In this document: positions 40,501 to 63,065 of the stretch, one piece after another
How positions within the stretch are numbered: position 1 is the stretch's first letter
Layout: every line of letters begins with the position of its first letter
Assembly: GCA_947630325.1 (NCBI GenBank)
Contig: CANRHB010000004.1
Coordinates: forward strand, 54,650 to 118,649
Source: an uncultured Clostridia bacterium
GTDB taxonomy: Bacteria; Bacillota; Clostridia; Christensenellales; Borkfalkiaceae
Length of the DNA: 64,000 nt
Direction: 5' to 3'
Program-made: the position numbers and the translations under genes
The notes under the pieces: generated by a model
What the model saw: the letters and a program-made list of their open reading frames with translations, nothing else
What the model was told of the DNA's origin: nothing
The model's database searches: none

Positions 40501-42432
40501 AAAAATCTCCACCCTATGGCAATGGCGGCTCTCGCCTGCGACCAGCTCGGCGCATACGATCTGCGCGACGGTTTTCTCGATAAAATAGAATACGTCCTTA
40601 CAGATTGGTTCACCTACACACGGGGGAACGAGCCGCAGGACGCCTACTTCTATTACGACAGCGAGTGGGGGACCTTGTACTACAAAAACAGCGAATTCGG
40701 CGCGGGCGTCAACCTCGCCGACCACCACTTTACCTATGGCTACTACACCTTTGCGGCGGGCGTTCTCTCCTCCTTCCGCCCGACGTTCGCCAAAACTTAC
40801 GGCGACATGATCGAGCTCCTCATCCGCGACTATATGAATTGGGAGCGCGACGACGGAGATTTTCCCTTCATGCGCAACTATGATGTGTATGCGGGGCACA
40901 GCTGGGCGGGCGGTTATGCGGACAACGACGGCGGGAACAACCAGGAATCCGCGGGCGAAGCGCTTAACAGTTGGGTGGGGGCGTATCTGTACGCCACCGC
41001 CGTGGGAAACGACGTCATCCGCGAAACGGCGATCTGCGGCTTTACCACCGAACTTAACGCCATCAAGCAGTATTGGTTCAACTATGACGGCGACAGTTTC
41101 GGGTCCTTCTATCCCTACGGCACCCTCGGCCAGCTCTATGGCGCGAGCAATTTCTTCGGCACCTTCTTCAATGGGGAGCCGCTGTATATGTACGGCATCC
41201 ACCTCATCCCCGGGGAGGAATTCCTCACGAGCTATGCCTTGAATGCGTACGAGCGGGAAAAACTCAAAGGAATGCTCGGCGCAATGGAACAGGAACAGGC
41301 GCGTTGGAACTTTTCGGCGGCGGACGCCTCCCACCGCGGCATCTATGCCTGGCAACATATCTTCATTCCCGTCATCGCAAGTTACGACCCCGCGGCCGCC
41401 ATTGAATTCTATGAAAAGACGTTGAAAGAGCAGGGCGGCGTCGGCAACACTTCCGAGCAATTCAACGTCTACTATATCATCCATGCGCTGAACTCAGTGG
41501 GGAGCCGCACAACGGACATCTGGGCAGAGAACGGGGCGTCGGCGACCGTCTATTTGAAGGACGGCGTCTATACCGCGATCTGCTGGAACCCCACATCGGA
41601 GACAGTTGAGTTCCTCTTTGAAAACGAAGAGGGGAGGGTCGGCCGCGTGGTCGTTCCCGCGCAGTCGCTTGTTCAATGCGACCCGACGAAAGAGACGCTC
41701 TCTTTCTCGCGCTATGAGGACGTGTCGCAGTTTGCCCTCGAAAGTGCCTGTAAGCGTTCGGACGCGGAGATGAAGGAGGGCAAACTTGTGTTCGGAAAGC
41801 AAGGCAGTGCAAGCTATCTTCTTGCATTCGGCAGAGAGGTGCAGTACCGCCGCGCAAAAATCGCGGCAACGGGCAGAGTGCGCCTGTTTGTCGATGGCGC
41901 GGAGGTCCCTCTTACCCAAACCGCGGAGGGGTGGGAGAGCGCGCCGCTTTCGCTTACGTTCAAACATACAGTCACACTTTCGGGGGAAAACGTCACGGTC
42001 GAAAGGTTCGTCATCGAAGAGGTCCCCCTCGTGCGGTTGAACGCAAAGTTGACGGCGTCCGCCTCGTCCGAAGAAAACGGCACGAATACGGCGGGAAAGG
42101 CGGTAGACGGCGACCTCTCTACCCGTTGGGAATCTGCGCAGGGGAAGGACGGAGAGTGGCTGCAACTCGAACTTGCCGACCCCGTAACGATCTATCAGAT
42201 GAAGATCTTCTGGGAGGCGGCCTCGGCCAAGGAATACAAGGTGTACTTCTCGGAGACGGGGAAGGAGGGAGATTGGGTGGAAGTCTATCACGGCAATTCC
42301 TCGCAAGGAGCCCGCACAGACGCCGTCGATCCCGCCGTCATCATGCAGACGAAATACATCAAGATCGTCGGCCTCTCCCGCACCACAAATTACGGTTATT
42401 CGATTTTCGAGATCGAACTATACGGAATTTAA
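37570..42432 (+). CDS. GH81 endo-beta-1,3-glucanase, multi-domain lipoprotein with F5/8C modules
   Basis: 1620 residues. The lipoprotein signal ends ALSAC, followed by a Pro/Ser/Asp linker (DNPSDNPSDNPS). Then come an Ig-like domain (~75-155), an F5/8C (CBM32-type) module (~170-315), two more discoidin-like pieces (~320-580), and the GH81 domain (~600-1320) with PVPSNDWWQSLL, the catalytic-region DHHFTYGYY (D1051) and GHSWAGGYADNDGGNNQESAGEA (E1126 and E1130). A small beta domain and a C-terminal F5/8C module (~1485-1620) close the protein. GH81 enzymes invert and cut long beta-1,3-glucans such as laminarin, curdlan or fungal wall glucan. Surface-tethered, it would cooperate with the GH16 enzyme and feed the transporter. 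No promoter is clear between the upstream terminator and the start. Confidence 0.93.
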   Translation: MLSKKLLALLMAAALTASFALSACAPSSNPVPPPVVGTDPTDDPTDNPSDDPSDNPSDNPSDNPSENPSGPADPADPFAPVITCGDVTIAAGKYFNYFAGVTARDYDGNDLSERITVAGDLNTSRAGAYSLIYSVTDDKGRVGSHTRKVTVTENEFLGKEEPVFLYTSQTAYNIAAGCEGTSSSENGGAVAARALDGDPSTRWESEHSDLPQTEYYPVDFTVDLGAALPIERVVIEWEAAYATDFEIALSRDGTAYQTAKHVSDFSFSGARGTFTQDITSTARYVRLRCLRRATNYGYSVYEFEVYGKQGTVIPAADFPILYDAKNASSSQWEIPREEWFCADLGGARSVDRMELSWKDGLSPASYDVEISSDGKTYAPVSRDGDGYFLSGRERASVTARYVRINMHSLRFYMNAYRVTQCLFRSGGTQLSATFTASSSQEGRPPQDARENYGTWWESRHTDDPQTVDLGQVRAVGRVDLFWRGDDGRKGKYYDLQISSDGVNFQTAFREVHGGLQQQSVYLFENARYLRILDYQSPDTTRFMLEGVVVHSQYPNEQKGDYDVTLAFPEEEIIYTENGSYLTGGTDFPTAKLVTFLDDSLRGKPVPSNDWWQSLLINDKGHNMFLNPLTAKFTAGGIWITNPGDGYYSGDDPGNGRQTVDVDVHDIRVGYAGMKQDATVRVVGYDDYSVTAVMSDSDEVDKLTVYLAQGAIYGYFFYAEPERATLSAENLVAVYDLAGKPILADGEEFSGDGIVVCVRTHSGYENGVEKGNAKEYEERFYVVNAPANTRFSLNEGMISVVMKEGNFLSVGAMSSVNTLSAAEAKENSVHGGPNTEEAALLHEHGYAFVLGTYCGASFDGAKNLVNTEYRLQTALLRSGFSQEAYSAFMPHQYKKSQNALENSYAYQTVRGEERAYAGNVYRTQDRFYGIVPQFTEPTDGGYSAATLMEQLLLLYANVGGDKDPKDSNLVSGDPYWQGKNLHPMAMAALACDQLGAYDLRDGFLDKIEYVLTDWFTYTRGNEPQDAYFYYDSEWGTLYYKNSEFGAGVNLADHHFTYGYYTFAAGVLSSFRPTFAKTYGDMIELLIRDYMNWERDDGDFPFMRNYDVYAGHSWAGGYADNDGGNNQESAGEALNSWVGAYLYATAVGNDVIRETAICGFTTELNAIKQYWFNYDGDSFGSFYPYGTLGQLYGASNFFGTFFNGEPLYMYGIHLIPGEEFLTSYALNAYEREKLKGMLGAMEQEQARWNFSAADASHRGIYAWQHIFIPVIASYDPAAAIEFYEKTLKEQGGVGNTSEQFNVYYIIHALNSVGSRTTDIWAENGASATVYLKDGVYTAICWNPTSETVEFLFENEEGRVGRVVVPAQSLVQCDPTKETLSFSRYEDVSQFALESACKRSDAEMKEGKLVFGKQGSASYLLAFGREVQYRRAKIAATGRVRLFVDGAEVPLTQTAEGWESAPLSLTFKHTVTLSGENVTVERFVIEEVPLVRLNAKLTASASSEENGTNTAGKAVDGDLSTRWESAQGKDGEWLQLELADPVTIYQMKIFWEAASAKEYKVYFSETGKEGDWVEVYHGNSSQGARTDAVDPAVIMQTKYIKIVGLSRTTNYGYSIFEIELYGI

Positions 42433-42632
42433 CGCATAACTGCAAAAACCTCCGAGTTTAATATTGTACTTTTATTTGCTTGTTGACCATCAAAGACCAT
42501 TTTATATTCGTTTTATTATCGCCTTGTCTTTACCAAGATAGTTTATGCGCTAATCCTTTTTTATTTTGATATAAGGAATTTTTTCAGAGTTGTTTTCACA
42601 TGCGTAAATTTAATAAAACTTACAGAAAAGGC

Positions 42633-42661
42633 TTGAAAAATTTAACGAATTGTGCTATACT
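42633..42661 (+). promoter_or_regulatory. Promoter of the FRG/RiPP operon
   Basis: TTGAAA (42633-42638), 17 bases, TATACT (42656-42661), inside a 293-base AT-rich gap that starts abruptly after the GH81 stop. No terminator is seen for GH81. Confidence 0.72.
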
Positions 42662-42725
42662 TTCTGCAGTTAGTTTTTTATGAGCAGTTGTTTCTTTATG
42701 ATAGGCTAAAGTAAGGAAGCCAAAT

Positions 42726-43967
42726 ATGATTAAACAAAAGACGAACAAAATTGAAATAAAGAACGTTGTTGATTACATTCGCGCCATTATAGCTTTGACG
42801 AGTGATGAGAAACAAAAATTTATCTTTAGAGGGCAACCTTCAACAAAATACGAAGTCAGCAGTGGAGCCTATAGAATAATAAGCGAAGCAAAAAATTGCA
42901 GAGAAGTAAAAGCTGAGGAGATTAAACGATATCACCAACTGCTCTTGCAGATGGTACATAAAATCAACTGCGATGAGGAAAGGCAACTCTCTTCTTCTCC
43001 GTTTGAATTATTGGCAGTCTTGCAGCATGGCGGAGCAAAGACCGGCTTGATTGATTTTTCTTATAATCCGTTGGTTGCATTGTTTTTCGCATGTCTGAAA
43101 GATGATAAAAGCGAAAATGACGACGGAGTTGTATATTATGTGAAGAAATCGAAATTTGCAATTATCAATAATGATTGTACCATTGAAAATATATTTGCAC
43201 ATGATGACGAATGGTATAATTACATATTGGATCCCGTGGCATTTAACACGAGAATTTTATCACAACAAGGTTGTTTTATCATTCCCAATATTGGTAGAAT
43301 TGATGAAATGCTGGTAGATAAATTTATCGTTCCCAACCGATTCAAGTCGAAAATTTTGAACACTTTAGAGGACCTTGGAATTTCGAGAAAAGAGCTTTTT
43401 AAGGATTTTTATGGTTTTTGCGGTTGGGGAGCAAACCTCATCGTAGATTCTTTTTCAATCAACGATGTCATTATGCGATTACAGTCGGCAATGACGTATA
43501 TTTTTATAAATGAATTGGATAATGCTGAATCTGAGATACAACAAGCCGAAAAGTTGTTGCCGTCGATTATAAATGATAATCAGGTTATTGTGAGATGGTT
43601 ATATCGATTGAAAGGTGATCTTGCTGTCGAAAGAGGGAAAACAGAGCAAGCGGTTGAGAATTATGAATTATCTATCGAGAGGGATGACAAGGACCGAATC
43701 ATTCCAAGCGCAGATAACTTTGGCCGTTGCATAGATGTTATTGAAGCGGCAGAAAAATTAAGGAAAGGCGAGCGCAGAGAGGAGATATTGCTCAAGCAAG
43801 AAGAATATGCCCGAATTATTTTAGATTTCGAAAGGCAGCAGGAAAACGATAAGCTTTCAACGTTATTGAGTGCACCAAAAGAATCTAAGGCCCGGAATGA
43901 ACTGTTGAGTGATATATATCGCTTGAAATTGTATGAAAAAGCAAAATCAGTAATTGATAATAAATAA
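42726..43967 (+). CDS. FRG-domain protein
   Basis: 413 residues. The N-terminal part shows the FRG domain: FIFRGQPS at 32-39 and LQHGGAKTGLIDFSYNPLVALFFA around 99-122, where many homologues read QHYGxPTRLLDWTxxPLVALxFA. FRG domains occur in phage-defence and conflict loci and in predicted toxins; the biochemical activity is not established to my knowledge. The C-terminal half is helical with TPR-like spacing (NELDNAESEIQQAEKLL, ERGKTEQAVENYELSIE). It is the first gene behind the operon promoter, and the candidate RiPP precursor starts 13 bases after its stop, so it is co-transcribed with the peptide pathway. Base composition is AT-rich, unlike the 42 kb to its left. Confidence 0.8.
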   Translation: MIKQKTNKIEIKNVVDYIRAIIALTSDEKQKFIFRGQPSTKYEVSSGAYRIISEAKNCREVKAEEIKRYHQLLLQMVHKINCDEERQLSSSPFELLAVLQHGGAKTGLIDFSYNPLVALFFACLKDDKSENDDGVVYYVKKSKFAIINNDCTIENIFAHDDEWYNYILDPVAFNTRILSQQGCFIIPNIGRIDEMLVDKFIVPNRFKSKILNTLEDLGISRKELFKDFYGFCGWGANLIVDSFSINDVIMRLQSAMTYIFINELDNAESEIQQAEKLLPSIINDNQVIVRWLYRLKGDLAVERGKTEQAVENYELSIERDDKDRIIPSADNFGRCIDVIEAAEKLRKGERREEILLKQEEYARIILDFERQQENDKLSTLLSAPKESKARNELLSDIYRLKLYEKAKSVIDNK

Positions 43968-43980
43968 AGGAGAATAAATC

Positions 43981-44184
43981 ATGAGTCAAGCATTGCAACC
44001 CAAAATCGAGATCTTTAATCCCTATGAACGGCCTTTTTCTGAATCGCATGAATATATCAATGGCGATTCACAATTGACAAAACTTGATTTTCGCGTTTCG
44101 GAATTCATTAAACGCGGCACAAATAATGCCGGAGATAAAATCGTATGTAAATGCACGCCGTGCCAATGTTGCGCATGCCGATGA
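43981..44184 (+). CDS. Candidate RiPP precursor peptide, Cys-rich C-terminus
   Basis: 67 residues, with AAAGGAG 8-9 bases upstream. The first ~53 residues are polar with an amphipathic stretch (QLTKLDFRVSEFIKRGTN) suited as leader. The last 12 residues, CKCTPCQCCACR, hold six cysteines (56, 58, 61, 63, 64, 66) and would be the core. There is no signal peptide. It directly precedes two SPASM radical SAM genes, a PqqD-like gene and a cobalamin-type radical SAM gene, and its TGA overlaps the first maturase's ATG (ATGA). This is the standard order of sactipeptide/ranthipeptide-like clusters, where thioethers link Cys sulfur to a carbon of another residue. No identical family is known to me, and no GG or other leader-cleavage motif is obvious (NAGDK is the closest). 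Confidence 0.75.
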   Translation: MSQALQPKIEIFNPYERPFSESHEYINGDSQLTKLDFRVSEFIKRGTNNAGDKIVCKCTPCQCCACR

Positions 44185-45158
44185 TCCGCAGAACGAGACC
44201 CATATCGGTTCAACTTGAGCTTACTTACGCATGCAACAATACATGCGGCTTCTGCTATAACAATCTAGATAGAACGGCGAGCCATAAAACGGTTCCGTAT
44301 GACAGGATGAAGATCATACTGGCAGACTTGCGTAGGTATGGGGTTTTCTCCATCAATTTTAACGGTGGAGAACCTTTGTTGTATGAAAATTTTTTCGATT
44401 TAGCTCAAATATGCTCGGAGCTCGGCTTTGACATTCACCTTAATACGAATGCAACATTGATCGACGAAAAAACTGCGGCGAATATCGCTCGACTGTTTCC
44501 AGCTGTGTGCTCCTCTCTGCATGGTGCAACTTCCGGTAAACACGATCTTGTGGTGGGCAGAGCGGGTGCGTTTGTACAAGCAGTAGCCGGCATTAAGCAT
44601 CTTGTCGCAAAAAATGTCTACGTTGCAGTTAATGTAACTGTCACTCAACAAAATCATGATGAACTCGGGGAGATTCTACAGTTGTTATCCTCGCTGGGGG
44701 TAGGAACACTTTTATTATCCCGTGTTTTAACAAATGACAGTACAATAGCTGTTTCAGATGAAGATTTCTTAATTGCGATAGAAACCGTCTTTAGATTCCA
44801 AACCGAGGGAAAAACCCCGTTTGCGCGAATCGGATTGCCCCAACCTTTCCCTCCATGTCGCATAGGCTCTTATTCAAAATTGTTGAATTTTATTTGTGAA
44901 TGCAATGTTCCATGCTCTGCTGGGTTAACGACAGCACGAATAACGCCTGAGGGAGATATTACCCCTTGTCCTGTTTTGAATGCACCCAATATTGGGAATA
45001 TAAAAACGGAATTGTTTTCAGAAGCGTGGGATAAGTTTCTTGACAACAAATGGATCAAGATTGGGGCGAAGCACGAAAGTTGTAACAAATGTTTATTCTT
45101 GCCAGAGTGCGGCGGTGGATGTCTGCCATGCAATCAATCAGGGGTGCTTACAGAATAA
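44181..45158 (+). CDS. Radical SAM/SPASM peptide maturase 1
   Basis: 325 residues. The radical SAM motif CNNTCGFC (C-x3-C-x2-C) lies near residue 20 and the SAM-binding GGEP follows. The C-terminal SPASM domain is complete: C-x12-G-x4-C (CSAGLTTARITPEGDITPC), then C-x2-C-x5-C-x3-C (CNKCLFLPECGGGC) and a further Cys, enough for two auxiliary 4Fe-4S clusters. Such enzymes install thioether, C-C or other radical cross-links in RiPPs. I choose ATG 44181, which overlaps the precursor stop, over longer in-frame ATGs inside the precursor gene; a coupled start gives a normal length. It ends in ...NQSGVLTE. The substrate is most likely the preceding peptide. Confidence 0.88.
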   Translation: MIRRTRPISVQLELTYACNNTCGFCYNNLDRTASHKTVPYDRMKIILADLRRYGVFSINFNGGEPLLYENFFDLAQICSELGFDIHLNTNATLIDEKTAANIARLFPAVCSSLHGATSGKHDLVVGRAGAFVQAVAGIKHLVAKNVYVAVNVTVTQQNHDELGEILQLLSSLGVGTLLLSRVLTNDSTIAVSDEDFLIAIETVFRFQTEGKTPFARIGLPQPFPPCRIGSYSKLLNFICECNVPCSAGLTTARITPEGDITPCPVLNAPNIGNIKTELFSEAWDKFLDNKWIKIGAKHESCNKCLFLPECGGGCLPCNQSGVLTE

Positions 45159-45180
45159 CTAAAAAGGAGGCTTTTATTAT

Positions 45181-46179
45181 ATGGCGGAAATATACGATCA
45201 TTTATATGATATTCAACCGCTATTGGTTCAAATTGAGTTAACGGAAGCGTGTAATCTCAAATGCCGCTTTTGCTATAATTCACAAAAACCGAGATTTAAT
45301 CACAAGGTTTTCGAAATGATGGATGCGCTCGCAAAGCAGGGCGTTATGCAGCTTACTCTCACCGGCGGAGAACCGTTGATGCATCCGAATTTCTTTGAAA
45401 TTTTAAAGAGAGCCGTTGAACTTTTTCCCAATGTCATGATACTATCAAACGGCGCCTTGATGTCGGATGAAAACGTTAAACGAATTTGTGACACGGGCCC
45501 GATGAGCGTTAGTATCTCTATTCACGGAGATGCGGAGACACATGATACTTTAACGGGTGTTAAAGGGAGCTTTGACGCTTCAATCAAGGCCATTAAAGCA
45601 TACTTGCGCGATAAAAGGGTACCCGTTGCGAGCAATTTTGTGCTCAACGCCTTCAATAAAAAGGTTTTACCTAAGACGGCGGAATATCTGCAGTCGATAG
45701 GGCTAAAATTTATGACCGTAACGCGTTTTGTTCCTGTCGGAATCGGACAATCGGCACATGATTTGGAAATAGAAAAAGATGATATGATTGATATAATGCG
45801 CTTTGCCGATCGCTTTATGCAACATAATGAAATGCACATTGAATTTGCAGAGGCGATACCTTTTTGCGTTGTACCTCCGGAATTAAAGCATTTGTGTAAT
45901 ACATGCTCTTATGGGTATGATAGATTTTATTCGGATGTAGAAGGGAATCTTATGGTTTGCGGTTTAACGCGGATCCCGTTAGGCGGCAATATTTTGGAAA
46001 CGCCGCTTTCAGAGATTAAGAAGAATTCAGATGTATTCAACTGTTTCGTAAAACAAGAGCAGCTGCCTCTGTCATGTCTTAAGTGCAGTACATTGGCTGT
46101 CTGCCATGGTGGATGTCGTGCTTCTGCAATGAAAGATAATAATTGGCGCGGGACGCCAGACTCGTTTTGTTCTAAGTAA
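45181..46179 (+). CDS. Radical SAM/SPASM peptide maturase 2
   Basis: 332 residues. CNLKCRFC is the cluster motif, followed by TGGEP. The SPASM part shows CSYGYDRFYSDVEGNLMVC (C-x12-G-x4-C) and CLKCSTLAVCHGGC (C-x2-C-x5-C-x3-C) with a late Cys in SFCSK. It is clearly related to maturase 1 but only moderately similar, so the two probably carry out different steps or act as a pair. AAAAAGGAGG lies upstream, 22 bases after the previous stop. Overall it resembles PqqE/AlbA-type enzymes, which need a PqqD-like partner; that partner is encoded next. Confidence 0.9.
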   Translation: MAEIYDHLYDIQPLLVQIELTEACNLKCRFCYNSQKPRFNHKVFEMMDALAKQGVMQLTLTGGEPLMHPNFFEILKRAVELFPNVMILSNGALMSDENVKRICDTGPMSVSISIHGDAETHDTLTGVKGSFDASIKAIKAYLRDKRVPVASNFVLNAFNKKVLPKTAEYLQSIGLKFMTVTRFVPVGIGQSAHDLEIEKDDMIDIMRFADRFMQHNEMHIEFAEAIPFCVVPPELKHLCNTCSYGYDRFYSDVEGNLMVCGLTRIPLGGNILETPLSEIKKNSDVFNCFVKQEQLPLSCLKCSTLAVCHGGCRASAMKDNNWRGTPDSFCSK

Positions 46180-46199
46180 TTACAAGGAGAAATATTCAT

Positions 46200-46466
46200 A
46201 TGGTTTCAGTTAATATGATCCCGCAAATACAGGTAGGCGTTCGGTTTCGGGATGAGGAATTCGGCTGTCTTGTATTTACGAACAGGACGCCGATCCTTTC
46301 CTTCGATCGAGATGCAACGAAAATTTTGCACCTCGTTGACGGACAATTATGTATCGGCGACATTGCGGCACGGCTCAGAGAGATGGGTTACATGGAGGCC
46401 GAAAAAGCGGTAACAGATTTTATCGGGATCTGCATAAAGCTCGACTTAATCAGGATCATTAAATGA
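46200..46466 (+). CDS. PqqD-like RiPP recognition protein
   Basis: 88 residues in the PqqD/RRE size range. The fold is recognisable from the N-terminal beta-hairpin (GVRFRDEEFGCLVFTN), the stretch DRDATKILHLVDGQLCIGDIAARL, typical of the PqqD winged helix, and the last helix (VTDFIGICIKLDLIRII). PqqD proteins bind the leader of the precursor and present it to the radical SAM enzyme. It begins after CAAGGAG, and its stop overlaps the start of the next gene (ATGA). Its presence is one of the strongest signs that the operon makes a RiPP. Confidence 0.85.
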   Translation: MVSVNMIPQIQVGVRFRDEEFGCLVFTNRTPILSFDRDATKILHLVDGQLCIGDIAARLREMGYMEAEKAVTDFIGICIKLDLIRIIK

Positions 46467-48034
46467 GTAATATGGAGATTCCTAAGCACGAGATCGTGTT
46501 TTTAATTCCGCCACCTGGTGATGTCACAATGCCAATGTTGGGAGCATACGTATTAAACGGTTACTTAAAAAAACACGGCGTAGTATCTCATGCAGTCGAC
46601 CTTTCGGTTGCGTTTTATCACAATATAAGGAAACAAGATAAATTTAACAAATGTTTAGCCTTGTGCAAAAAGACTTCTGTACCCGATCAGGACTTGCTGA
46701 TTGGGTATAAAAGCGATAGCGAGGATAGGATAAGCGGCTTGATTCTGGCCGAAGAATTGTTAAACAGGCTCCAAAGCGTTGTAGTGTTTTCTGCCGGTAC
46801 CGTAACCTTTCGATCTGATTTAAAATCTTATGAAGATATCGCTAAGAATGTGGAGAATTTGTCCGTTTTTGAGCCTCTTTTAGAGGAGGAAATAACAGAT
46901 ATTTGTTACTCAGGCTGCTCCATTATTGGATTATCCGTATCCTTTCTTTCACAGTTACCTTTCGCATTATTGATTGCAAAACGCATAAAGAAGTACCGTC
47001 CCGAAATGCGAATCATCTTTGGTGGTAGTTTATTTCAGCAACATAACAGAGAATATCAATATATGGGGCAGTTTGGCACGTTAGTGGATGACGTAATATG
47101 TGGGCCGGGGGAAAGCGCGGTGCTCTCTCTATGTTTGCCTTATGCAAACAAGGGCTACACGGCAGATATTGAGCGTATTCCTGACTTTTCAGATGTAAAG
47201 TGGGAACAATACTATACGGATAGTCGTACCCGATGTGTTCCATTTTCCTTCCGAACGAGTTGCTATTACGGGAAATGCCGTTTTTGCAATGGTGATAAAA
47301 GCGTAGGTGTGCAAAAGTTTAACGATAGGGAAATAGAGGAAACTATACGGTCGTTGAAGGCTCTTGTTTCCGAACACGGCATAACACACGTTTATTTTAC
47401 TGATGCGGCAATTCTTCCGCGTGATTTGTTAAAGATAGCAATGCTGATCCATGGCGAATTTAAATGGGGGATAAACGCAAGAGCGGATAAGTCTCTCACC
47501 GTTATATTGCCTCAATTGGCAAGCAACGGCTGCTATATGTTGCGGATCGGTTTTGAAAGCGGCTCCCAAAGTGTGTTAAATGCTATGCAAAAGGGCACGA
47601 ATGTTGACGAATATAGTGCCTTTCTTTCTGTGGCAAAACAAAACAACATAAGAATTCATGCTTATATAATGTTTGGTTTTCCAGGAGAAACAAATAATGA
47701 CAGGGATGCAACGTTAAAGTTTATGGCAAATAATAAGGATAAAATTTACTCTTACAGTTTGTCCATTTTCACCGCATATCCCGGAACTTTTATTTACGAT
47801 CGACTCGTGAAAAAGTATGGAAGATCGAGGAATGAAGATATAGATATCAATACGCTATATTATGATGAACAAAGTTATAGGAATTTGTTGAACTATGTTA
47901 CGCTTGTAGATACCGTTATGGCAGGAGCGCAAAACAATAAGTATTGCTATGGAGGCAGAGTCTTTATGGATGACCCTGGCATCGAACCGAGTAGGTTCGA
48001 TAAAAATGTCCTATCGATCATCCAAAATTATTAA
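46463..48034 (+). CDS. Cobalamin-type radical SAM enzyme, probable peptide C-methyltransferase
   Basis: 523 residues. The N-terminal ~220 residues look like a B12-binding Rossmann domain (EIVFLIPPPGDVTMPMLGAYVLNGYL, RIIFGGSLFQ, VDDVICGPGESAVL). The radical SAM domain carries SCYYGKCRFCNG, which is C-x4-C-x2-C instead of the usual C-x3-C-x2-C, then FESGSQSVLNAMQKG and FGFPGETNND, typical of class B enzymes. Relatives in RiPP clusters methylate unactivated carbons, so C-methylation of the product is the best guess. A plain tRNA-modification role is unlikely in this setting. It overlaps the PqqD-like gene by four bases. Confidence 0.82.
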   Translation: MSNMEIPKHEIVFLIPPPGDVTMPMLGAYVLNGYLKKHGVVSHAVDLSVAFYHNIRKQDKFNKCLALCKKTSVPDQDLLIGYKSDSEDRISGLILAEELLNRLQSVVVFSAGTVTFRSDLKSYEDIAKNVENLSVFEPLLEEEITDICYSGCSIIGLSVSFLSQLPFALLIAKRIKKYRPEMRIIFGGSLFQQHNREYQYMGQFGTLVDDVICGPGESAVLSLCLPYANKGYTADIERIPDFSDVKWEQYYTDSRTRCVPFSFRTSCYYGKCRFCNGDKSVGVQKFNDREIEETIRSLKALVSEHGITHVYFTDAAILPRDLLKIAMLIHGEFKWGINARADKSLTVILPQLASNGCYMLRIGFESGSQSVLNAMQKGTNVDEYSAFLSVAKQNNIRIHAYIMFGFPGETNNDRDATLKFMANNKDKIYSYSLSIFTAYPGTFIYDRLVKKYGRSRNEDIDINTLYYDEQSYRNLLNYVTLVDTVMAGAQNNKYCYGGRVFMDDPGIEPSRFDKNVLSIIQNY

Positions 48035-48048
48035 AAAGCGGTGCGGCT

Positions 48049-50484
48049 GTGAATGAAATCAAGTTTATAGGTTGCAAAGAGGGCAACCTCAAAAATGTAG
48101 ATGTTTCCCTCCCTTATGGAAAAATAACAGCGGTAACCGGCGTTTCCGGTTCCGGTAAATCTTCCTTTGCTTTTAATACAGTTTACAGCGAAGGACGCCG
48201 CCAATTTTTAGAAATTTTAGACCCGAGCGAAGCATTTTATTTGTCGAAGTCTTGCTCGCCCGATTTAGACATGGCAATCGGGCTACCCCCCACCATAGCA
48301 GTTCGACAAGTCAGGAACGTATCTAATCCACTAAGTACCGTAGGTAGCGTATCACATATCAACTCGTTTTTGTTTGCTATATTTTCGTCTGTCGGTCAAC
48401 AGTGTTGTCCGCATTGTCAAAAAAAAGGATTGAATGTTTACACTTCAGCATATATACCTTGTCCGAGCTGTGGCGTGAAACCTGCGGTTTTACCGCCTTC
48501 GTTTTTTTCCAATATGTCTCCCAACGGAATGTGTCCCACTTGCGGGGGAGCCGGTGTTGTTGTAGCAGTTGATGAAACGAAAATTTATCCCAACCAGGAA
48601 TTAACGCTCAACGAAGGCGGTTTTCTCTATGGGATTCCCCCAAAAGGCACTACAAAATATAATTTTTTCAAATCTTTTGTAATGCAGTACGGCGCAACGA
48701 TGGATACGCCAATTAAAGATTTCAGTACCGAACTTAAAGTTGCACTTTTATATGGGGTGCAAAAAAATAAGAAAAACAAGATTGCGTTCGATGGAATCGT
48801 CAACGAGATTTTGAAAACGTATAAGACAACGACCAGCGGTAAGCTAAGACAGCAACTATCTCAATTCTTCACATCTTCGGTATGTGAGGACTGTAATGGC
48901 GAAGGAATCTCGCGTTTGGCACAAAGCATTTTAATTGAAGGGAAAAATATCTGCGAAGTTCAGAAGATGGCCATTTTTGATTTATATCATTTTCTCAAGA
49001 ATCTTTACTTCGGAGACTTACGCGACGATATCATTAGTATTCCGATCGGTAAAATTTTAGATCAATGCGAGGTGATCATCAACCTTGGAATTTCGTATCT
49101 GAGCCTATCGAGGAAAACAGCCTCGCTTTCCGGCGGGGAAATGCACCGACTGTTTCTTTCCACATTGGTGTCCAACAAGATGTCTGGTGTGCTGTATATT
49201 CTCGATGAACCGTCCACCGGTCTGCATTATTGTGAGATACCCAATCTGATCCACGAAATAAAGGCTTTGCAGCAAGCAGGGAACGGGAATACTGTACTGT
49301 TAGTGGAACATAATCCACAACTCATAAGTATTGCAGATAACATTCTTGAATTTGGTCCAGGGGCCTCTTATAATGGCGGCGAAATCGTTTATAACGGGAC
49401 GAGAGAGGGGCTCAAGAACACAATATCTTTAACAGAAAAGTTATTGTCAAATCAATTAAAAATTGAGCGAAGCAAACCTTTTGGTCATGATCCGAACGAT
49501 TTTATTGGCATTCGTAATGCAAATTCTAACAATTTGAAAAATGTAAGCGTGGATATACCGCTCCATTGTATCGTGGCAATCACAGGCATCAGTGGCTCAG
49601 GTAAAAGTTCTTTGGTCTTCGATTCGCTTGTTGAATACGGCAAGATCAACAAACAGGTTTCCAAAACGCGAACGATAGCGCGTGCCGAGGTAGTAAACAA
49701 CGAAAAGGTTGAGCAAATTATGCTTTGTTCTCAGACACCTATCGGTAATAATTCACGCTCTGTCGTGGCAACTTACAGTGAAATTATGCCCGATATCAGG
49801 GAGTTGTTTGCCGATACGGAAGAGGCTTTGAGACAGTCGCTTAGCGAAACAGCATTCAGTTTTAACACAGCAATAGGCGCTTGTCCTCAATGTGGCGGCT
49901 TTGGCAAAATAAAGCTCTCAAATTATTTTTTAAGCAATACTGAAATCAAATGTCCTTGCTGCGAAGGGCGCAGGTTCAACAATAAAATATTAAGCGTGAA
50001 ATATTTAGGTAAAAACATTTCGGAGATACTCGACCTTGATGTTGATTCGGCTTGTGATTTTTTCGGCGGGAACAAAAAAATTCGAAGAAAGCTTGAATTA
50101 CTAAAAGAGGTCGGCTTAGGCTACTTGCGGCTTGGACAAAATATTGTCGAATTGTCAGGGGGCGAGTCGCAACGGCTAAAATTAGCAGGAAATTTAATGA
50201 ACAGTAAATTGAAAAATGTGTTATATATTTTCGATGAACCTTCGGCCGGTTTGCATTTTATCGATATACAAAAGTTAGTATTTATGTTTGAAAAACTTAT
50301 TGCCGAAGGCAATTCGGTAATCATCGTCGAACATAATATGGAACTGATAGCATGTTCGGATTATATTATCGATATGGGACCGGGGGCGGGTAAAGACGGT
50401 GGAATGGTTGTTGCGGCTGGTACAGCGAAAGAAGTAGCGGCAACCAATACACCTACCGGTGTATCACTGAGGCAATATGTTTAA
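48049..50484 (+). CDS. UvrA-like double ABC protein (DrrC type), probable self-resistance
   Basis: 811 residues, against ~940 for housekeeping UvrA. Two ABC modules are complete: Walker A GVSGSGKSS at 31-39 and GISGSGKSS at 513-521, signatures SLSGGEMHR (~359) and ELSGGESQR (~701), and Walker B YILDEPSTGLH and YIFDEPSAGLH. Zinc-binding pairs CPHC/CPSC and CPTC are in the first half and CPQC/CPCC in the second. The ~130 missing residues fit loss of the UvrB-binding region, as in UvrA2/DrrC proteins that protect producers of DNA-binding drugs (DrrC with daunorubicin). As last gene of the peptide operon it suggests that the product acts on DNA. The start is GTG, 14 bases after the previous stop; a weak AATTG/CAATT hairpin near 50606-50620 may end the operon. 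Confidence 0.85.
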   Translation: MNEIKFIGCKEGNLKNVDVSLPYGKITAVTGVSGSGKSSFAFNTVYSEGRRQFLEILDPSEAFYLSKSCSPDLDMAIGLPPTIAVRQVRNVSNPLSTVGSVSHINSFLFAIFSSVGQQCCPHCQKKGLNVYTSAYIPCPSCGVKPAVLPPSFFSNMSPNGMCPTCGGAGVVVAVDETKIYPNQELTLNEGGFLYGIPPKGTTKYNFFKSFVMQYGATMDTPIKDFSTELKVALLYGVQKNKKNKIAFDGIVNEILKTYKTTTSGKLRQQLSQFFTSSVCEDCNGEGISRLAQSILIEGKNICEVQKMAIFDLYHFLKNLYFGDLRDDIISIPIGKILDQCEVIINLGISYLSLSRKTASLSGGEMHRLFLSTLVSNKMSGVLYILDEPSTGLHYCEIPNLIHEIKALQQAGNGNTVLLVEHNPQLISIADNILEFGPGASYNGGEIVYNGTREGLKNTISLTEKLLSNQLKIERSKPFGHDPNDFIGIRNANSNNLKNVSVDIPLHCIVAITGISGSGKSSLVFDSLVEYGKINKQVSKTRTIARAEVVNNEKVEQIMLCSQTPIGNNSRSVVATYSEIMPDIRELFADTEEALRQSLSETAFSFNTAIGACPQCGGFGKIKLSNYFLSNTEIKCPCCEGRRFNNKILSVKYLGKNISEILDLDVDSACDFFGGNKKIRRKLELLKEVGLGYLRLGQNIVELSGGESQRLKLAGNLMNSKLKNVLYIFDEPSAGLHFIDIQKLVFMFEKLIAEGNSVIIVEHNMELIACSDYIIDMGPGAGKDGGMVVAAGTAKEVAATNTPTGVSLRQYV

Positions 50485-50661
50485 TTCAAGTCAATGTCCA
50501 AAAAAACATAAAATGTTCATTAAAATTACTGTTGTTATTTGTTTTAGTGTTTTATTCTTGGTAAAGAACTTATAAATGAAGCTTGTTTTTTGTAAAACAT
50601 AAATTAATTGTTTTGCAATTTTTGTTGTTAATTATCATCGGCGGTTCAAGTATTCAAAGCG

Positions 50662-50690
50662 GAAAAACCCCGCAGGACGAGCCCGCGGGG
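50662..50690 (-). terminator. Terminator of the toxin-antitoxin operon
   Basis: CCCCGC and GCGGGG (50668-50673, 50685-50690) form the stem; on the minus strand five T follow. Confidence 0.8.
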
Positions 50691-50705
50691 AGTGGAGAAT
50701 AGAGT

Positions 50706-50969
50706 TTAGTTTTCGTTATAGTGCGTCCACATGCAAAGGATTTTCACGGCTTTATGTTCTTCGTCTATCTGATAGACGAGATGATGTTGCAGGTTGATCC
50801 TTCGGGAATAGACTCCTGCAAGATCCCCTACGAGTTTTTCAAAGGGCGGCTGATAGGGATCCTCTTCGAGGACGGTGAGAAGTCGTTTGACCTTTTCACC
50901 GAAAGAACTCTTCTTCACGAGTTCGAGGTTCTTCACTGCTTGCTTGGTAAAGAAGATGCGATAGTTCAT
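50706..50969 (-). CDS. YoeB-type toxin (RelE superfamily mRNA interferase)
   Basis: 87 residues. The sequence follows the Txe/YoeB pattern: FFTKQAVKNLELVKK, LLTVLEEDPYQPPFEKLVGDLAGVYSRRINLQHHLVY and the C-terminal THYNEN, which supply the basic and His residues of the RNase site. YoeB cuts mRNA at the ribosomal A site when its antitoxin is degraded. Its ATG overlaps the antitoxin stop by four bases, so start 50969 is chosen over a longer frame. It is the second gene of a two-gene operon. Confidence 0.9.
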   Translation of the reverse strand: MNYRIFFTKQAVKNLELVKKSSFGEKVKRLLTVLEEDPYQPPFEKLVGDLAGVYSRRINLQHHLVYQIDEEHKAVKILCMWTHYNEN

Positions 50970-51220
50970 GACAGCTCCTTTTTCCAATCAAGCTCCTCGC
51001 ATTCTTCGAGCGGCGTTGCCATTCCCTCGCGGATCGACTGCGCCATGCCGGGGAGACCGCAGAGGAAGCAAGTTTCTTCGAGACTGCGCAAATATTCTTC
51101 GCTGACGATCGCGGCATTGCCATTTTTGGTTGTAACGATGATCTTCTCGTCATTGACTGCGGCGGCGTCGAGGTATCCGAAGAGATTTTTCCTGAGCGTC
51201 GTGGCATTGGTGATAGACAT
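50966..51220 (-). CDS. YefM/Phd-type antitoxin
   Basis: 84 residues. The N-terminal half is the Phd/YefM DNA-binding fold (SITNATTLRKNLFGYLDAA, EKIIVTTKNGNAAIVSEEYLRSLEE); the C-terminal part is acidic (LEECEELDWKKELS) and would wrap the toxin. The start at 51220 follows AGGAGGTG. It should repress its own promoter at the palindrome just upstream. The odd Cys pair FLCGL in the middle is not family-typical. Confidence 0.9.
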   Translation of the reverse strand: MSITNATTLRKNLFGYLDAAAVNDEKIIVTTKNGNAAIVSEEYLRSLEETCFLCGLPGMAQSIREGMATPLEECEELDWKKELS

Positions 51221-51244
51221 AGAAAGCACCTCCTGCTTTATAGT

Positions 51245-51278
51245 ATGTACATTATAACGTACATTTACGCAAAGTCAA
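51245..51278 (-). promoter_or_regulatory. Promoter and palindromic operator of the toxin-antitoxin operon
   Basis: On the minus strand TTGACT (51278-51273), 16 bases, TATAAT (51256-51251). The -10 box sits inside ATGTAC-ATTATAAC-GTACAT (51245-51264), an inverted repeat of the TGTACA type that YefM proteins bind. Confidence 0.82.
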
Positions 51279-51422
51279 GGGGGGGGGAGAATAAAAAATT
51301 TTAGGAAGTAGGTTACCCTTTGCAGTTGCTTCACTGTTCCTCGGAAAGTTGCGCAATCAATATAATATGATAAAGCGAGGCCGTTTCCAAAAGAGAACAG
51401 TTTTGCTTAGTAAAGTAAAATT

Positions 51423-53432
51423 CTATGCCAGCGGGAGGGTGGCAGAAAAGACGGTCAAGTTTTCTCTGCGCTCATACGTCAATTCACCGTGCATCGTCTC
51501 GATCGCATTTTTTGCCAAGAAAAGGCCGAGGCCCGAATTGTTTTCGGAGGGGTTGCCCGAAACAAAGGGCGCAAAGACGTTTTGATCGGTCGTAATTCCC
51601 CGTCCGTCGTCTATGACGTCGAGGCGGCAAATTCCTCTGCGCTTAACGGCCGTCACAGACAAATGGGAGCAAAACGAGTGCTCGATCGCATTCAAAACCA
51701 AGTTGAAGATCACACTCTCCAAGGCAACTTTTTTGGCGTAAACATTCAACGTTTCGGGCAGTGTGACCGTCAAAATAATTCCGTTCGCCTCGCAGTCGGG
51801 GCGCAGGTCGTCCGTCACGCTCTGCACGATCTTGCTCAAATTTACCGCTTCGGACTGCTCAGCAACGTAATTCTGCTTGCCGTATTTTCCGATCTCGGCA
51901 AAGTCTTTTTTGAGTTCGGCATTTTTTTGCAATAAGTGATCCACTTTCGAAACCAATTCGGGGGCAGAGAGATTTTTCCGCAGATCGTTCAGAGAATCGT
52001 TCATTCCGACGACGGTTCTATTCATGTCATGGCTGACATACAGCAAAATTTTGTCCCGATCGGCAAGAACATTCTTGAGACTCTGCGTCTGCCGCTCCAC
52101 TTCCTGTTCGAGGTTGGTGGTAAGATAGCGGTTGTGTATTTCGGCAGTGATAAATTCGCGCAGTCCCAAAATAAACGTGATGCTCAGTTCCCCGAGATAC
52201 AGCCAAAAGGAGGGGGATAGCATGATAAACGGGATGGGTTGATCGGCAAACAAGGCCGAGACGGTGGCAACGCCCGCGATGACGGTGTTGAGCCGCAGTC
52301 CCAAGGGTTTATTTTTATATACGTCGCGTATGGTAGAGGCGAAGATCACAAGGATGCAAGCGAACACCAAGGCGATGTAGGTATAGCACACCGCCCTATA
52401 CGCGGGTACGCTCGTGCAGAAGGTCGAAATAAACGCAAGCACAGTCGCGGCGACGGTAGCGGCGCTTGTCAGATATAAAACGGGGATCTTTCCGATTTTT
52501 TTGGGAAGATACAGTGACGCGGCGAAGAGGATAAAGCCCAAGGAGAAGCGGCGGACCGCACGCAAAAGATAGGGAACGGCCGTAGACCCGAACAGCGCGT
52601 AGGAGGAAATCAGCGCAAAGAAAATTCCGACGGCAAACAGCAGTTGCGGGAAAAAGGAAAAGGACTTCTTCAAAATACAGATCAAAAGGAAGAGCAGGAG
52701 GGTACCTGCGCCGATGATCGCACCGATCAGGAGAACGGAACGGTTTTGGTTTACGGCGCCGCGCACCGCCGTGTCCTCGCCGATGAGGACGGGCCCCATA
52801 AATCCAACAAAGTTGTCGTTGTCCGCTTCATAATGGATGGTTATTTTGCACTCTTTTGAGTATTTCCCATCCGCCGAGATGGGAACATCAAGGAACATGG
52901 GCTTTGTTGCCGTCTGGTGGGCAACGGCGTCGTCAAACTCGGAGGGCGAAGAGTAATTGAGATAATAGTCGATATTGTATCTATCGATCGTGCCGACGTA
53001 ATCTTTGTTTTCGTACTGCACAAACACACTGCACGCGGCAAATACGGGAGGGAGATATATGGTAAGATGCCAATTCCCGTCCGGCTTCAAGAGGGGCTTC
53101 AAACTCTCGCTCTGCGCCCATTCCTCCTGTGTAAGGGTGTCGATATAAAACCGGTAGGTCCCGCGCTTTGCGGGCTCTGCCGCATTCTCTTCGTTTGAAA
53201 CGGTTTCATTGAGCCCCGCAAATTCATTGGGAAGATAGTTGAACGATGTAAGTTCCATCACGCCGTGCACGTCTAAAATGGAGACGGCGTTCACCGAAGA
53301 GCCGTCGACCTCTTTTTCTCGGATGGGCGCGTCCGCCACCATGTTTTCTCTTGTGAAAAGCAAAACGAGCGAAAACACCGCGCAGAACACAAACAGCCCC
53401 ACCAAAATGAGCACGTTTCCGACCTTTTTCAT
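51423..53432 (-). CDS. Sensor histidine kinase with 7TMR-DISM-like sensor
   Basis: 669 residues. An N-terminal membrane span is followed by an extracellular beta-rich domain (~30-240), seven or so membrane segments (~245-460), a coiled-coil linker and a kinase core. The phospho-acceptor is in YVSHDMNRTVVG; the ATPase domain shows N box VIFNLVLNAIEHS, G1 DDGRGI and G2 NNSGLGLFLAK. The order matches 7TMR-DISM kinases, whose external domain often binds carbohydrates or other small ligands. Its ATG overlaps the stop of the response regulator gene (ATGA), so the longer upstream frame is rejected; GGGAGAAG lies at the right distance. Confidence 0.87.
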   Translation of the reverse strand: MKKVGNVLILVGLFVFCAVFSLVLLFTRENMVADAPIREKEVDGSSVNAVSILDVHGVMELTSFNYLPNEFAGLNETVSNEENAAEPAKRGTYRFYIDTLTQEEWAQSESLKPLLKPDGNWHLTIYLPPVFAACSVFVQYENKDYVGTIDRYNIDYYLNYSSPSEFDDAVAHQTATKPMFLDVPISADGKYSKECKITIHYEADNDNFVGFMGPVLIGEDTAVRGAVNQNRSVLLIGAIIGAGTLLLFLLICILKKSFSFFPQLLFAVGIFFALISSYALFGSTAVPYLLRAVRRFSLGFILFAASLYLPKKIGKIPVLYLTSAATVAATVLAFISTFCTSVPAYRAVCYTYIALVFACILVIFASTIRDVYKNKPLGLRLNTVIAGVATVSALFADQPIPFIMLSPSFWLYLGELSITFILGLREFITAEIHNRYLTTNLEQEVERQTQSLKNVLADRDKILLYVSHDMNRTVVGMNDSLNDLRKNLSAPELVSKVDHLLQKNAELKKDFAEIGKYGKQNYVAEQSEAVNLSKIVQSVTDDLRPDCEANGIILTVTLPETLNVYAKKVALESVIFNLVLNAIEHSFCSHLSVTAVKRRGICRLDVIDDGRGITTDQNVFAPFVSGNPSENNSGLGLFLAKNAIETMHGELTYERRENLTVFSATLPLA

Positions 53433-54453: not shown

Positions 54454-55205
54454 TTAGCTCGAAATTTTATTTAAGTATTTGGTAAATGCGTCAAGCTCTT
54501 TATCTGAAAGTGCGTCGGATAGAATATACACGGGAAACTTATTTATATCTAAAAAATATGGGGTTGTTTTATTTGATTCCGATTGCAGCATGACTATTGC
54601 GATTGATTGGTTTTTGCCGCGATCTTTCGCATAGTTGTATGCGCTGTAAAATTCGGCTAAACATTTTGGCGATTGCAGGCTCTTTTTAGAAGCAAGAAAA
54701 ACGTAGATTCCTTCAGTTACCGCGTCATGAATGGACTTTTCCATATTTGTCGCAAAATAATCTATGAATACGTTATATCCATTTGCTTGCAAATAAGAAC
54801 TTATTTTGTTCGCAGTTTCCGAATCGTAGCGGGAATAAGTTAGAAAAACTCTATTGCGTTTCAAAATTGCGGTAAGAGTTTGTAAGAATGAGATCAAGCT
54901 CCGACTGAAATCTTTTTCAATGTCTAATACATAAAACCGGCTTGCGTCAAGACTGCGGATATATTCAAGTTCTTTCTGTACCCAAGGAGATTTTTCAGAA
55001 TTTGTGCTTTTACAATATAAAAACACATTGCGCGCACGAATTTCGCGTTTTATGAAGTCTTCAAGTTCTTCGTTTTCATCGTCCAAACATTTTAAGAAAA
55101 AATTAAAGGATCACAGTCAAGGATTTCAAGAACATCCCGAATTTTACGGACCTTCTCTTCATCTTTGTGTGAATGAGATAAGAAAATGGTTATTCTGTTA
55201 TTCAT
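54454..55205 (-). pseudogene. Tandem-TIR gene, copy 1, frameshifted in an A/T run
   Basis: Starting at 55205 the minus strand reads MNNRITIFLSHSHKDEEKVR and goes on for 37 residues to a stop, exactly like the intact gene at 63066-63851, then the frame shifts. The cause is a run of six A (55097-55102, plus strand), where the intact copy has seven (63742-63748). After the shift the frame is open to 54454 and matches the rest of the intact protein: end of TIR 1 (SPWVQKELEYIRS) and a more divergent TIR 2 (RVFLTYSRYDSETANKI, VFLASKKSLQSPKCLAEF). A product from an internal ATG at 55086 would lack the first beta strand of TIR 1. It may be dead, or switched on and off by slippage. Confidence 0.8.
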
Positions 55206-55252
55206 TAGCTTTCTCCATCATTCCAAACATAAAATTCCAAAAACCACAATAA

Positions 55253-55288
55253 AGGCGAAGCCATCCCCAAATGGAAACGGGTTCGCCT
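55253..55288 (-). terminator. Terminator of the five-gene operon
   Basis: AGGCGAA (55253-55259) pairs with TTCGCCT (55282-55288), with TTATT following on the minus strand. It separates the operon from the tandem-TIR copy 1 start. Confidence 0.6.
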
Positions 55289-55362
55289 CTACTTTGCTTG
55301 ATGAACTCTTTGCGATTTCATTAGAAAAACTCGCTTACACAGTAATTATTTTATTCATCGTG

Positions 55363-56151
55363 TTACTCGCGCCAACTTTTATAAACAGAAGTCCTTGTTT
55401 CTTTCCTTTGATATTTATCGTTGTGTTTACTCCCTCTTGAAAAAAGTTTGCAAGTAAAGCTTGTACCAAAGTAGGAGATAAGTAGATTTTGTATCGCGGA
55501 ATCTTTTAGAAAGGCGCACGAGAAGATATCGATAAGCGCCGTTTTGGAAGCGATATCGTAGTGTACGGCAATGTGGCTTTGAGCAACGACAAGAAGACCA
55601 GAGATGGAGGTTGGACATTCGCTATGGTCAAAAATCACATAGGGGCGAGAAATTGGTAGCATGTTGATTTCATAGGCAATGTGGTCAAGCCAACGGTAGA
55701 TCCATTCCATCGTCATAGGGAAGTCACGTACTTCAATCATATAGTGCGGGCCGAAATCGGACGTAGGGTCCGTGGGCTGTTCCTCGACGCAATCAAGCAT
55801 ACGTCTGTCAATTAACTTGGAAGACACACGTTCGGCATACAGCCTGTTCTTTACGGTCGTTTCTGCAAGAGTAGCCGAGAAAAATTCATCAGAGAGGATA
55901 TCGACAAAATAGCAGGAGCGATAAGGGAATGTGTGAATGGTAATGTGCCCGCTTTTACACAAGATGAACGCACTCACACCCCCATCTTCTGCATCCTCGC
56001 AATAATAATAAGGAACAAGAAACGGTGGCATGATCGGATGTAACTTGAGTTCTGCCGCCACGTTTATGAGCAACTCGTTCACAGTCATGATATTGTTGGC
56101 GTTTTCTTCAATGGTCCCATATGAGTCCATAATAAAATGAAGATGCGGCAT
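55363..56151 (-). CDS. Double S-adenosylmethionine-decarboxylase-like protein
   Basis: 262 residues, about twice a bacterial SpeD. The first half begins HLHFIMDSYGTIEENAN and contains SGHITIHTFPYRSCYFVDIL (67-86), which parallels the SpeD processing-site region (S-H-x-x-I-H-T-W-P-E ... VD). The second half repeats the theme with HYMIEVRDFP (136-145) and QSHIAVH ... TALIDIFSC (191-212). SpeD cleaves itself before the Ser to make a pyruvoyl cofactor. Here the first motif has a Gly between Ser and His, and the second has Gln instead of Glu before Ser, so activity is uncertain. The setting, last gene of a TIR/ParA operon, is not that of polyamine synthesis. AAAGGAGT precedes the start, two bases after the previous stop. 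Confidence 0.65.
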   Translation of the reverse strand: MPHLHFIMDSYGTIEENANNIMTVNELLINVAAELKLHPIMPPFLVPYYYCEDAEDGGVSAFILCKSGHITIHTFPYRSCYFVDILSDEFFSATLAETTVKNRLYAERVSSKLIDRRMLDCVEEQPTDPTSDFGPHYMIEVRDFPMTMEWIYRWLDHIAYEINMLPISRPYVIFDHSECPTSISGLLVVAQSHIAVHYDIASKTALIDIFSCAFLKDSAIQNLLISYFGTSFTCKLFSRGSKHNDKYQRKETRTSVYKSWRE

Positions 56152-56153
56152 AT

Positions 56154-58391: not shown

Positions 58392-58393
58392 GG

Positions 58394-59290: not shown

Positions 59291-59296
59291 ATCGGT

Positions 59297-61543: not shown

Positions 61544-61558
61544 CGTTTTTTCTCCTGT

Positions 61559-62632: not shown

Positions 62633-62731
62633 AAAATTATATATCTCCGCAGAACTTACGAACCCCAAAGAGCGATCATTTCTTCAAAAAATGTCCAATA
62701 GGAGAAAGTCGTTGTGCTGTTTAATAAATTC

Positions 62732-62760
62732 ATTATATCACATATTAAATCTTGTGTCAA
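62732..62760 (-). promoter_or_regulatory. Promoter of the five-gene operon
   Basis: On the minus strand TTGACA (62760-62755), 17 bases, TATAAT (62737-62732), both perfect. Confidence 0.88.
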
Positions 62761-63020: not shown

Positions 63021-63065
63021 ATTTATCCATGTCTGGTGACCTTGCCGTAATCCCAATAGAACACT

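Follow-up and report, generated by a model that had tools for sequence, protein, structure and literature searches.

Closest described systems

The subject of this analysis is a cassette of seven genes at positions 42,726–50,484 of a 64,000-nt stretch of DNA (hereafter the window) from an uncultured Clostridia bacterium (contig CANRHB010000004.1). It encodes a cysteine-rich precursor peptide, two SPASM-type radical S-adenosylmethionine (SAM) enzymes (rSAM1 and rSAM2), a PqqD-like protein, a radical SAM enzyme with a B12-binding domain, a UvrA-like protein and an FRG-domain protein, and thus touches on several described systems. In sactipeptide and ranthipeptide pathways (SkfB and PapB types), a cysteine-rich precursor likewise adjoins SPASM-type radical SAM enzymes; SkfB is a sactipeptide enzyme that forms sulfur-to-alpha-carbon thioethers. 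The cassette departs from these pathways in combining two SPASM-type enzymes with a B12-domain enzyme, in having a separate PqqD-like protein and no recognisable exporter, and in that its enzymes score far below curated cut-offs. A stand-alone PqqD-like protein beside SPASM-type enzymes is shared with the pyrroloquinoline quinone (PQQ) and mycofactocin pathways (PqqD/PqqE and MftB/MftC). By contrast with these, the precursor lacks an NCBIfam match, the later pathway genes are absent from the cassette, and the enzymes fall well short of the respective models (107 bits for rSAM1 against MftC, 265 being needed, and 85 bits for rSAM2 against PqqE, 381 being needed). The SynChlorMet cassette (ScmE/ScmF) also holds two SPASM enzymes; the radical SAM enzymes described here reach no more than 82 and 79 bits with its models, for which 400 are required, and we know of no UvrA-like, FRG or B12-domain gene in it. 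Finally, B12 radical SAM methyltransferases (TIGR03975, PhpK) have the same layout of B12-binding and radical SAM domains as the B12-domain enzyme, which differs from them by scores far under the cut-offs and by its cluster motif, CX4CX2C.

The UvrA-like protein recalls self-resistance of the Ecm16/DrrC type, in which biosynthetic genes are accompanied by one for a UvrA-like protein that has no UvrB-binding domain. According to the Ecm16 study (PMC10192343), Ecm16 guards Escherichia coli against echinomycin independently of UvrA, B, C and D, and is devoid of zinc module 1, the cysteines of which are kept in the protein described here. The latter further differs in standing beside RiPP-type genes (RiPP, ribosomally synthesized and post-translationally modified peptide) and in being closer to canonical UvrA structures than to Ecm16. 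Additional UvrA-like proteins in antibiotic clusters have been catalogued (PMC6804068), and RiPPs are among the cluster classes around uvrA and uvrA-like genes in a mining study of Actinobacteria (PMC10413001), the main text of which does not contain the word 'radical'. Because that study already lists RiPPs, their co-location with uvrA-like genes is not new as such, and the first-pass annotation of this DNA, which regarded UvrA-type immunity for a radical SAM RiPP as a novelty, was too strong in this respect; as to the gene set itself, no paper with this combination of parts turned up in searches of the open-licence PubMed Central (PMC) literature. We tentatively interpret the cassette as a radical SAM RiPP pathway with Ecm16/DrrC-like self-protection that was acquired horizontally, an interpretation that, taken as a whole chain, falls a little short of an even chance.

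A conserved cassette built around a cysteine-rich precursor

The 67-aa precursor has six cysteines within its 12-residue C-terminal tail, in the pattern CxCxxCxCCxC. Six cysteines in 12 residues occur in 1 of the 481 open reading frames (ORFs) of at least 40 aa in the window and in none of the 6910 ORFs from 200 base shuffles of the cassette, and the precursor has no family match in NCBIfam, Pfam, PADLOC or PHROG. Relatives of the cassette were sought in genome_contigs (one genome per species, 84,980 species) by exact 8-residue patterns of the B12-domain protein, a search that finds close relatives only. It yielded two related loci, L005 and L006, in the Clostridiales metagenome-assembled genomes HAN107 and HAN108, both containing all seven genes in the same order. 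Since their DNA is nearly identical (93% over 12 kb) and their flank is the same, the two loci amount to one independent context. Their precursors, between which there are zero differences, are 87% identical to that of the window, and all three precursors end in the same 19 residues; window and L005 differ by 23 synonymous and 10 nonsynonymous changes over 67 codons, corresponding to a ratio of nonsynonymous to synonymous substitution rates (dN/dS) of 0.065. For the other cassette genes, the comparison with the window gives dN/dS values from 0.057 (rSAM2) to 0.155.

Given its recurrence in both related loci, the identical last 19 residues and the low dN/dS, comparative evidence indicates that the cysteine-rich ORF is a genuine gene. 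Related loci might have had no such ORF, as the first-pass annotation recognized, and both kept it, within their one independent context. The strong purifying selection on the precursor together with the identical cysteine tail supports a RiPP pathway, as does the persistence of the seven genes side by side in two different flanks.

A separate feature of the precursor gene is a stretch of 29 bases (44140–44168) encoding the start of the cysteine-rich tail, which is identical in all three loci, in contrast to a synonymous divergence of about 1 for the precursor; it is located just before the likely start of rSAM1.

Radical SAM enzymes and a probable leader-binding protein

The two SPASM-type enzymes share about 27% identity in a cross-locus comparison. 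Against the Pfam SPASM cut-off of 21.5 bits, rSAM1 passes (30.5 bits) and rSAM2 does not (16.8 bits), with the SPASM cysteine pattern of rSAM2 retained as judged by eye. NCBIfam curated cut-offs were reached by none of the best 25 of 82 families for rSAM1 and the best 25 of 94 for rSAM2. In a PDB search, the best solved relative of both enzymes is SkfB (E 1e-16 for rSAM1 and 7.5e-29 for rSAM2), which favours a role in RiPP maturation. Matches to rSAM1 on plasmids comprise 226 records, every one below 60% identity. Between L005 and L006, the genes for rSAM1 and the PqqD-like protein yield dN/dS values of 0.60 and 0.84 on 6 and 8 changes, too few to judge.

For the PqqD-like protein, Pfam gave no match, and the top PDB profile match is a PqqD domain (E 0.0035); the predicted model is too poor (pLDDT 50.6), and a Foldseek search returned no match at E 0.001 and no PqqD. 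These signals, weak but consistent, make it probable that the protein is a leader-binding RiPP recognition element (RRE), and PqqD domains being its best PDB profile matches again supports the RiPP assignment. The proposal that this is a RiPP-type operon with a real cysteine-rich precursor, a SPASM-type pair and PqqD/MftB-like, B12-domain and UvrA-like proteins is upheld.

The same PqqD/MftB-like partner and SPASM enzymes resemble PqqE/MftC systems, in line with a modified peptide that would act, by PQQ/mycofactocin-like logic, as an intracellular redox or metal-binding cofactor and not as a toxin; the CxCxxCxCCxC tail, which we take to be metallothionein-like, and the lack of a recognisable exporter point the same way. 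However, the cassette has no obvious cofactor-using enzyme, its rare and patchy distribution is atypical of a cofactor pathway, and the UvrA-like and FRG proteins would be left unexplained. We regard a cofactor role as improbable, and as weaker than both the self-protected RiPP pathway and the conflict system considered below.

The B12-domain enzyme (cysteine motif CYYGKCRFC) reaches 35.8 bits against PF02310, for which the cut-off is 32.1, and its two relatives 32.1 and 30.8 bits. It resembles the TIGR03975 RiPP C-methyltransferases (E 1e-21; 77.1 of the 281.85 bits needed, hence below cut-off) and PhpK (E 4e-23; 82 of 600 bits needed), and lies far below the cut-off of every named C-methyltransferase model among the NCBIfam matches listed; C-methylation by this enzyme would be a guess. 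It is the sole PF02310 protein detected at E 0.001 in the host genome, which is 91% complete; the two other carriers encode two and one further PF02310 proteins above the cut-off; two genomes of the same genus without the cassette produced sub-threshold PF02310 matches only. Plasmid matches were present in 53 records, and all three neighbourhoods inspected were unrelated.

A UvrA-like protein devoid of the UvrB-binding domain

The UvrA-like protein scores 744.8 bits against TIGR00630 as a protein (729.8 needed) and 627.9 bits in the genome search. The UvrB-binding region is missing: in the alignment, residues 122–136 face residues 142–268 of Bacillus stearothermophilus UvrA. Both ATPase halves with their motifs and the insertion domain PF17755 are kept, as are four cysteines at the position of zinc module 1 (CPHC...CPSC), which two other aligned UvrA-like proteins also retain. 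Ecm16 (7SH1) is matched with an E value of 3e-119, and the host genome encodes a separate full-length UvrA with the UvrB-binding region. The absence of the UvrB-binding domain, the conservation of the ATPase halves and PF17755, and the presence of a complete UvrA elsewhere in the host argue for a self-protection role, as does the fact that Ecm16 protects E. coli with no need of UvrA, B, C and D (PMC10192343). Relatives at E <=1e-157 were present in three genomes besides the host among 348, and plasmid matches amounted to 878 records. The protein also matches the PADLOC family mad3 (E 1.8e-49), perhaps via shared ABC ATPase parts only.

That UvrA-like and FRG families both exist elsewhere as stand-alone accessory genes would suit an ordinary radical SAM RiPP locus of the sactipeptide or ranthipeptide type with these two genes as unrelated passengers. 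The tight spacing and co-conservation of the genes in two contexts despite a synonymous divergence of about 0.7–1.0, as well as purifying selection on both the UvrA-like and the FRG gene (dN/dS 0.07 and 0.15), speak against passengers, and we consider this explanation distinctly unlikely and, like the cofactor role, weaker than the readings in which the two genes take part.

Probable horizontal acquisition and sporadic distribution

DNA similarity between the window and its relatives (about 83%) spans positions 42631–50488, that is, from 95 bp before gene 1 to 4 bp past the last stop codon. Outside these limits the loci diverge: in the window, a GH81-type glycosidase lies upstream and a YoeB/YefM-type toxin–antitoxin pair downstream, whereas L005 and L006 have PPDK upstream and L006 has a large repeat protein downstream (the L005 sequence ends soon after the cassette). 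The G+C content of the cassette is 0.41, compared to 0.56–0.62 in the gene just upstream and 0.52 in the whole window, and at third codon positions 0.36–0.53 compared to 0.77 in the upstream gene. The contrast is weaker downstream, where the values rise only to 0.44–0.52 and fall again to 0.36–0.41 beyond 54 kb. Synonymous divergence is about 0.7–1.0 in the cassette and 1.28 in PPDK of the same genomes, a comparison weakened by saturation and composition. Because the flanks differ and the G+C content drops from 0.56–0.62 just upstream to 0.41, the cassette was, judging from its composition and context, probably acquired horizontally, a feature that the first-pass annotation had missed.

Pieces of a large serine recombinase are found just upstream of the cassette in both L005 (2234–3834) and L006 (2128–3644). 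They lie in different reading frames, which differ between the carriers, with the Resolvase and Recombinase domains on separate pieces; the recombinase is possibly a remnant of the transfer vehicle. No direct repeats of at least 11 bp connect the cassette flanks in any of the three loci, and a 12-bp inverted match between the flanks, seen in the window only, was taken as chance.

The precursor was present in 3 of 301 sampled family genomes; a weak match in a fourth (E 0.004, positions 6–39 only) was dropped, the ORFs of that 3.1-kb locus displaying no apparent cysteine-rich tail or radical SAM motif. The B12-domain protein was detected in 2 of 297 order genomes (E 1e-40) and in 1 of 391 class genomes (E 1e-25), the host being included in both counts. 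Searches of viral_contigs with rSAM1, rSAM2, the B12-enzyme alignment and the DNA pattern of the cysteine core recovered no viral relatives.

Proposed function and the FRG-domain gene

In the self-protected RiPP pathway that we favour, the 67-aa precursor would be translated just ahead of rSAM1, and its leader bound by the PqqD-like protein, which would present the C-terminal CKCTPCQCCACR to the two SPASM-type enzymes. These would most likely link some of the six cysteines through thioether (sulfur-to-carbon) bridges, and the B12-domain radical SAM enzyme would contribute a third radical modification. In the manner of Ecm16, the UvrA-like protein would recognise DNA to which the product has bound and, with the use of ATP, shield the DNA of the producer, and the FRG protein may serve the unit as an additional effector or as a regulator. 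The sequence itself establishes the gene set, the reality of the precursor, the joint inheritance of the genes and the missing UvrB-binding domain; the chemistry, the DNA target and the part played by the FRG protein are inferred. Should the peptide prove to be modified and to act on DNA, the cassette would represent a radical SAM RiPP protected in the UvrA manner, and its UvrA-like gene would offer a probe for mining anaerobes for DNA-acting peptides. The FRG gene, present in all three carriers, would tie RiPP chemistry to a family otherwise discussed in phage defence.

Several observations weigh against this interpretation. No exporter and no protease or leader peptidase is recognisable in the shared cassette with NCBIfam, Pfam and PADLOC profiles, an absence that had gone unremarked in the first-pass annotation. 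The tail has only six non-cysteine residues, hence few thioether acceptors, and metal binding by the tail is possible. Searches of the 91%-complete host genome for further PF02310 proteins, MetH and cobalamin riboswitches gave no additional indication that it uses B12. Among the solved structures in the PDB, Ecm16 is a weaker match to the UvrA-like protein than are canonical UvrA (E 4.5e-174) and Deinococcus radiodurans UvrA2 (E 1.3e-134). The other cassette proteins were absent (E 0.01) from all three 19-kb regions around its relatives; since these relatives occur without the other cassette genes, the fold alone is no proof of drug protection. Lastly, one would not expect a RiPP operon to begin with an FRG gene.

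The identity of this first gene had escaped the first-pass annotation. It scores 61 bits against PF08867 (cut-off 25) and matches the PADLOC candidate PDC-S15 (E 2.4e-34) and the PHROG family phrog_4962 (E 4.4e-29), with a TPR_8 match below the Pfam cut-off (E 5e-4). Residues invariant in four plasmid FRG proteins are kept (R35-G36, Q100-H101, T106, D110, R176 and Q180); those four have no counterpart of the TPR-like C-terminal part. A structure prediction was unusable (pLDDT 37.5). Its place at the head of the cassette, with 13 nt (window) or 3 nt (L005 and L006) separating it from the precursor, makes the FRG gene part of the unit. Plasmid FRG matches comprise 26 records, of which 4 loci were inspected: in one, on a Cetobacterium somerae plasmid (L068, 2956–4005), the FRG gene directly follows the type I restriction genes R, M and S, and the other three display no evident defence genes.

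This position of the FRG gene bears on a different reading, in which the cassette is a mobile intracellular conflict system of the phage-defence or abortive type, with the FRG protein as the effector, probably acting on NAD+ or as an ADP-ribosyltransferase (ART), the modified peptide as trigger, partner or second toxin, and the UvrA-like protein as a DNA sensor or guard. PMC9503650 assigns Frg to the ART superfamily and proposes that it takes part in prokaryotic immunity as an NADase or in signalling. The matches of the FRG protein to PDC-S15 and to phage families, that of the UvrA-like protein to mad3 (with the reservation on ABC ATPase parts stated above) and the restriction operon preceding one of the four plasmid FRG genes are in line with a role in defence. 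The sporadic distribution, the low G+C content and the serine recombinase pieces upstream in two carriers are compatible with a mobile system acting inside the cell, as is the finding that no exporter or protease can be recognised. On the other hand, FRG function is predicted only, the resemblance of the radical SAM genes to entries of the defence library is confined to generic viperin similarity, three of the four plasmid FRG loci are without an evident defence operon, and UvrA-like immunity is an established natural-product trait. Overall, we judge a conflict system to be rather unlikely; it stays in consideration because of the FRG gene, the patchy distribution and the fact that no exporter or leader peptidase is recognisable in the shared unit. 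In a more specific version, which appears unlikely, DNA would be attacked or marked by a modified cysteine-rich peptide that stays in the cell, with host DNA under the guard of the UvrA-like protein; on sensing the peptide or its target, the TPR-like part of the FRG protein would set off the NAD+-directed FRG effector. No such FRG/UvrA/RiPP conflict unit turned up in searches of the open-licence PMC literature, in which no paper contains 'FRG domain' and 'radical SAM' together.

Locus layout and transcription

As first described, seven tightly packed plus-strand genes fill the cassette (Table 1); neighbours overlap slightly or stand no more than 22 nt apart, the successive spacings in the window being 13 nt, an overlap, 22 nt, 20 nt, a 4-nt overlap and 14 nt. 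Of the two ATGA overlaps reported initially, the one between the PqqD-like and B12-domain genes stands; that between precursor and rSAM1 (44181–44184) is particular to the window, L005 and L006 reading TAA there. Because TAA replaces ATGA in the relatives and the ATG at 44175 is kept in their alignment, conservation makes it more likely that rSAM1 starts at 44175, within the last codons of the precursor, instead of at 44181. The suggestion of a single upstream promoter agrees with one good candidate site in a region conserved in both relatives, in a scan that overall was no richer than shuffles (25 sites against a shuffle mean of 21.8). An Rfam search of positions 42000–51500 returned no RNA match.

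Table 1 Features of the cassette, with positions in the window
Feature	Position	Strand	Basis
Promoter-like site TTGAAA-17-TATACT, TG before second hexamer	42633–42661	+	Site scan; region conserved in L005 and L006
Gene 1: FRG-domain protein with TPR-like C-terminal region, 413 aa	42726–43967	+	PF08867 E 1.9e-16
Gene 2: precursor peptide, 67 aa, C-terminal CKCTPCQCCACR	43981–44184	+	Conserved in 2 of 2 other loci
Gene 3: radical SAM/SPASM enzyme 1 (rSAM1)	44175–45158	+	Radical_SAM E 2.5e-16, SPASM E 4.5e-7; start by conservation
Gene 4: radical SAM/SPASM-like enzyme 2 (rSAM2)	45181–46179	+	Radical_SAM E 5.1e-21; SPASM E 0.0086, below cut-off
Gene 5: PqqD/MftB-like, probable leader-binding protein (RRE), 88 aa	46200–46466	+	MftB E 2.1e-4, PqqD E 2.9e-4, both below cut-off
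Gene 6: radical SAM protein with B12-binding domain, 523 aa	46463–48034	+	B12-binding E 8e-9, Radical_SAM E 3e-14
Gene 7: UvrA-like double ABC ATPase without UvrB-binding domain, 811 aa, GTG start	48049–50484	+	TIGR00630 745 bits

Neighbouring loci

Directly downstream of the cassette, on the minus strand (50706–51229), a YoeB-like toxin is encoded with a YefM/Phd-type antitoxin. Further along the same strand, a cluster at 54454–63851, close to a tRNA-Glu gene (63924–63998), encodes three TIR-domain proteins, a SAM decarboxylase-like protein, what is presumably a ParA-like ATPase, called from its KGGAGRS start, and a pair of orphan proteins (about 745 aa each) that have no Pfam match; it looks like a TIR conflict locus.

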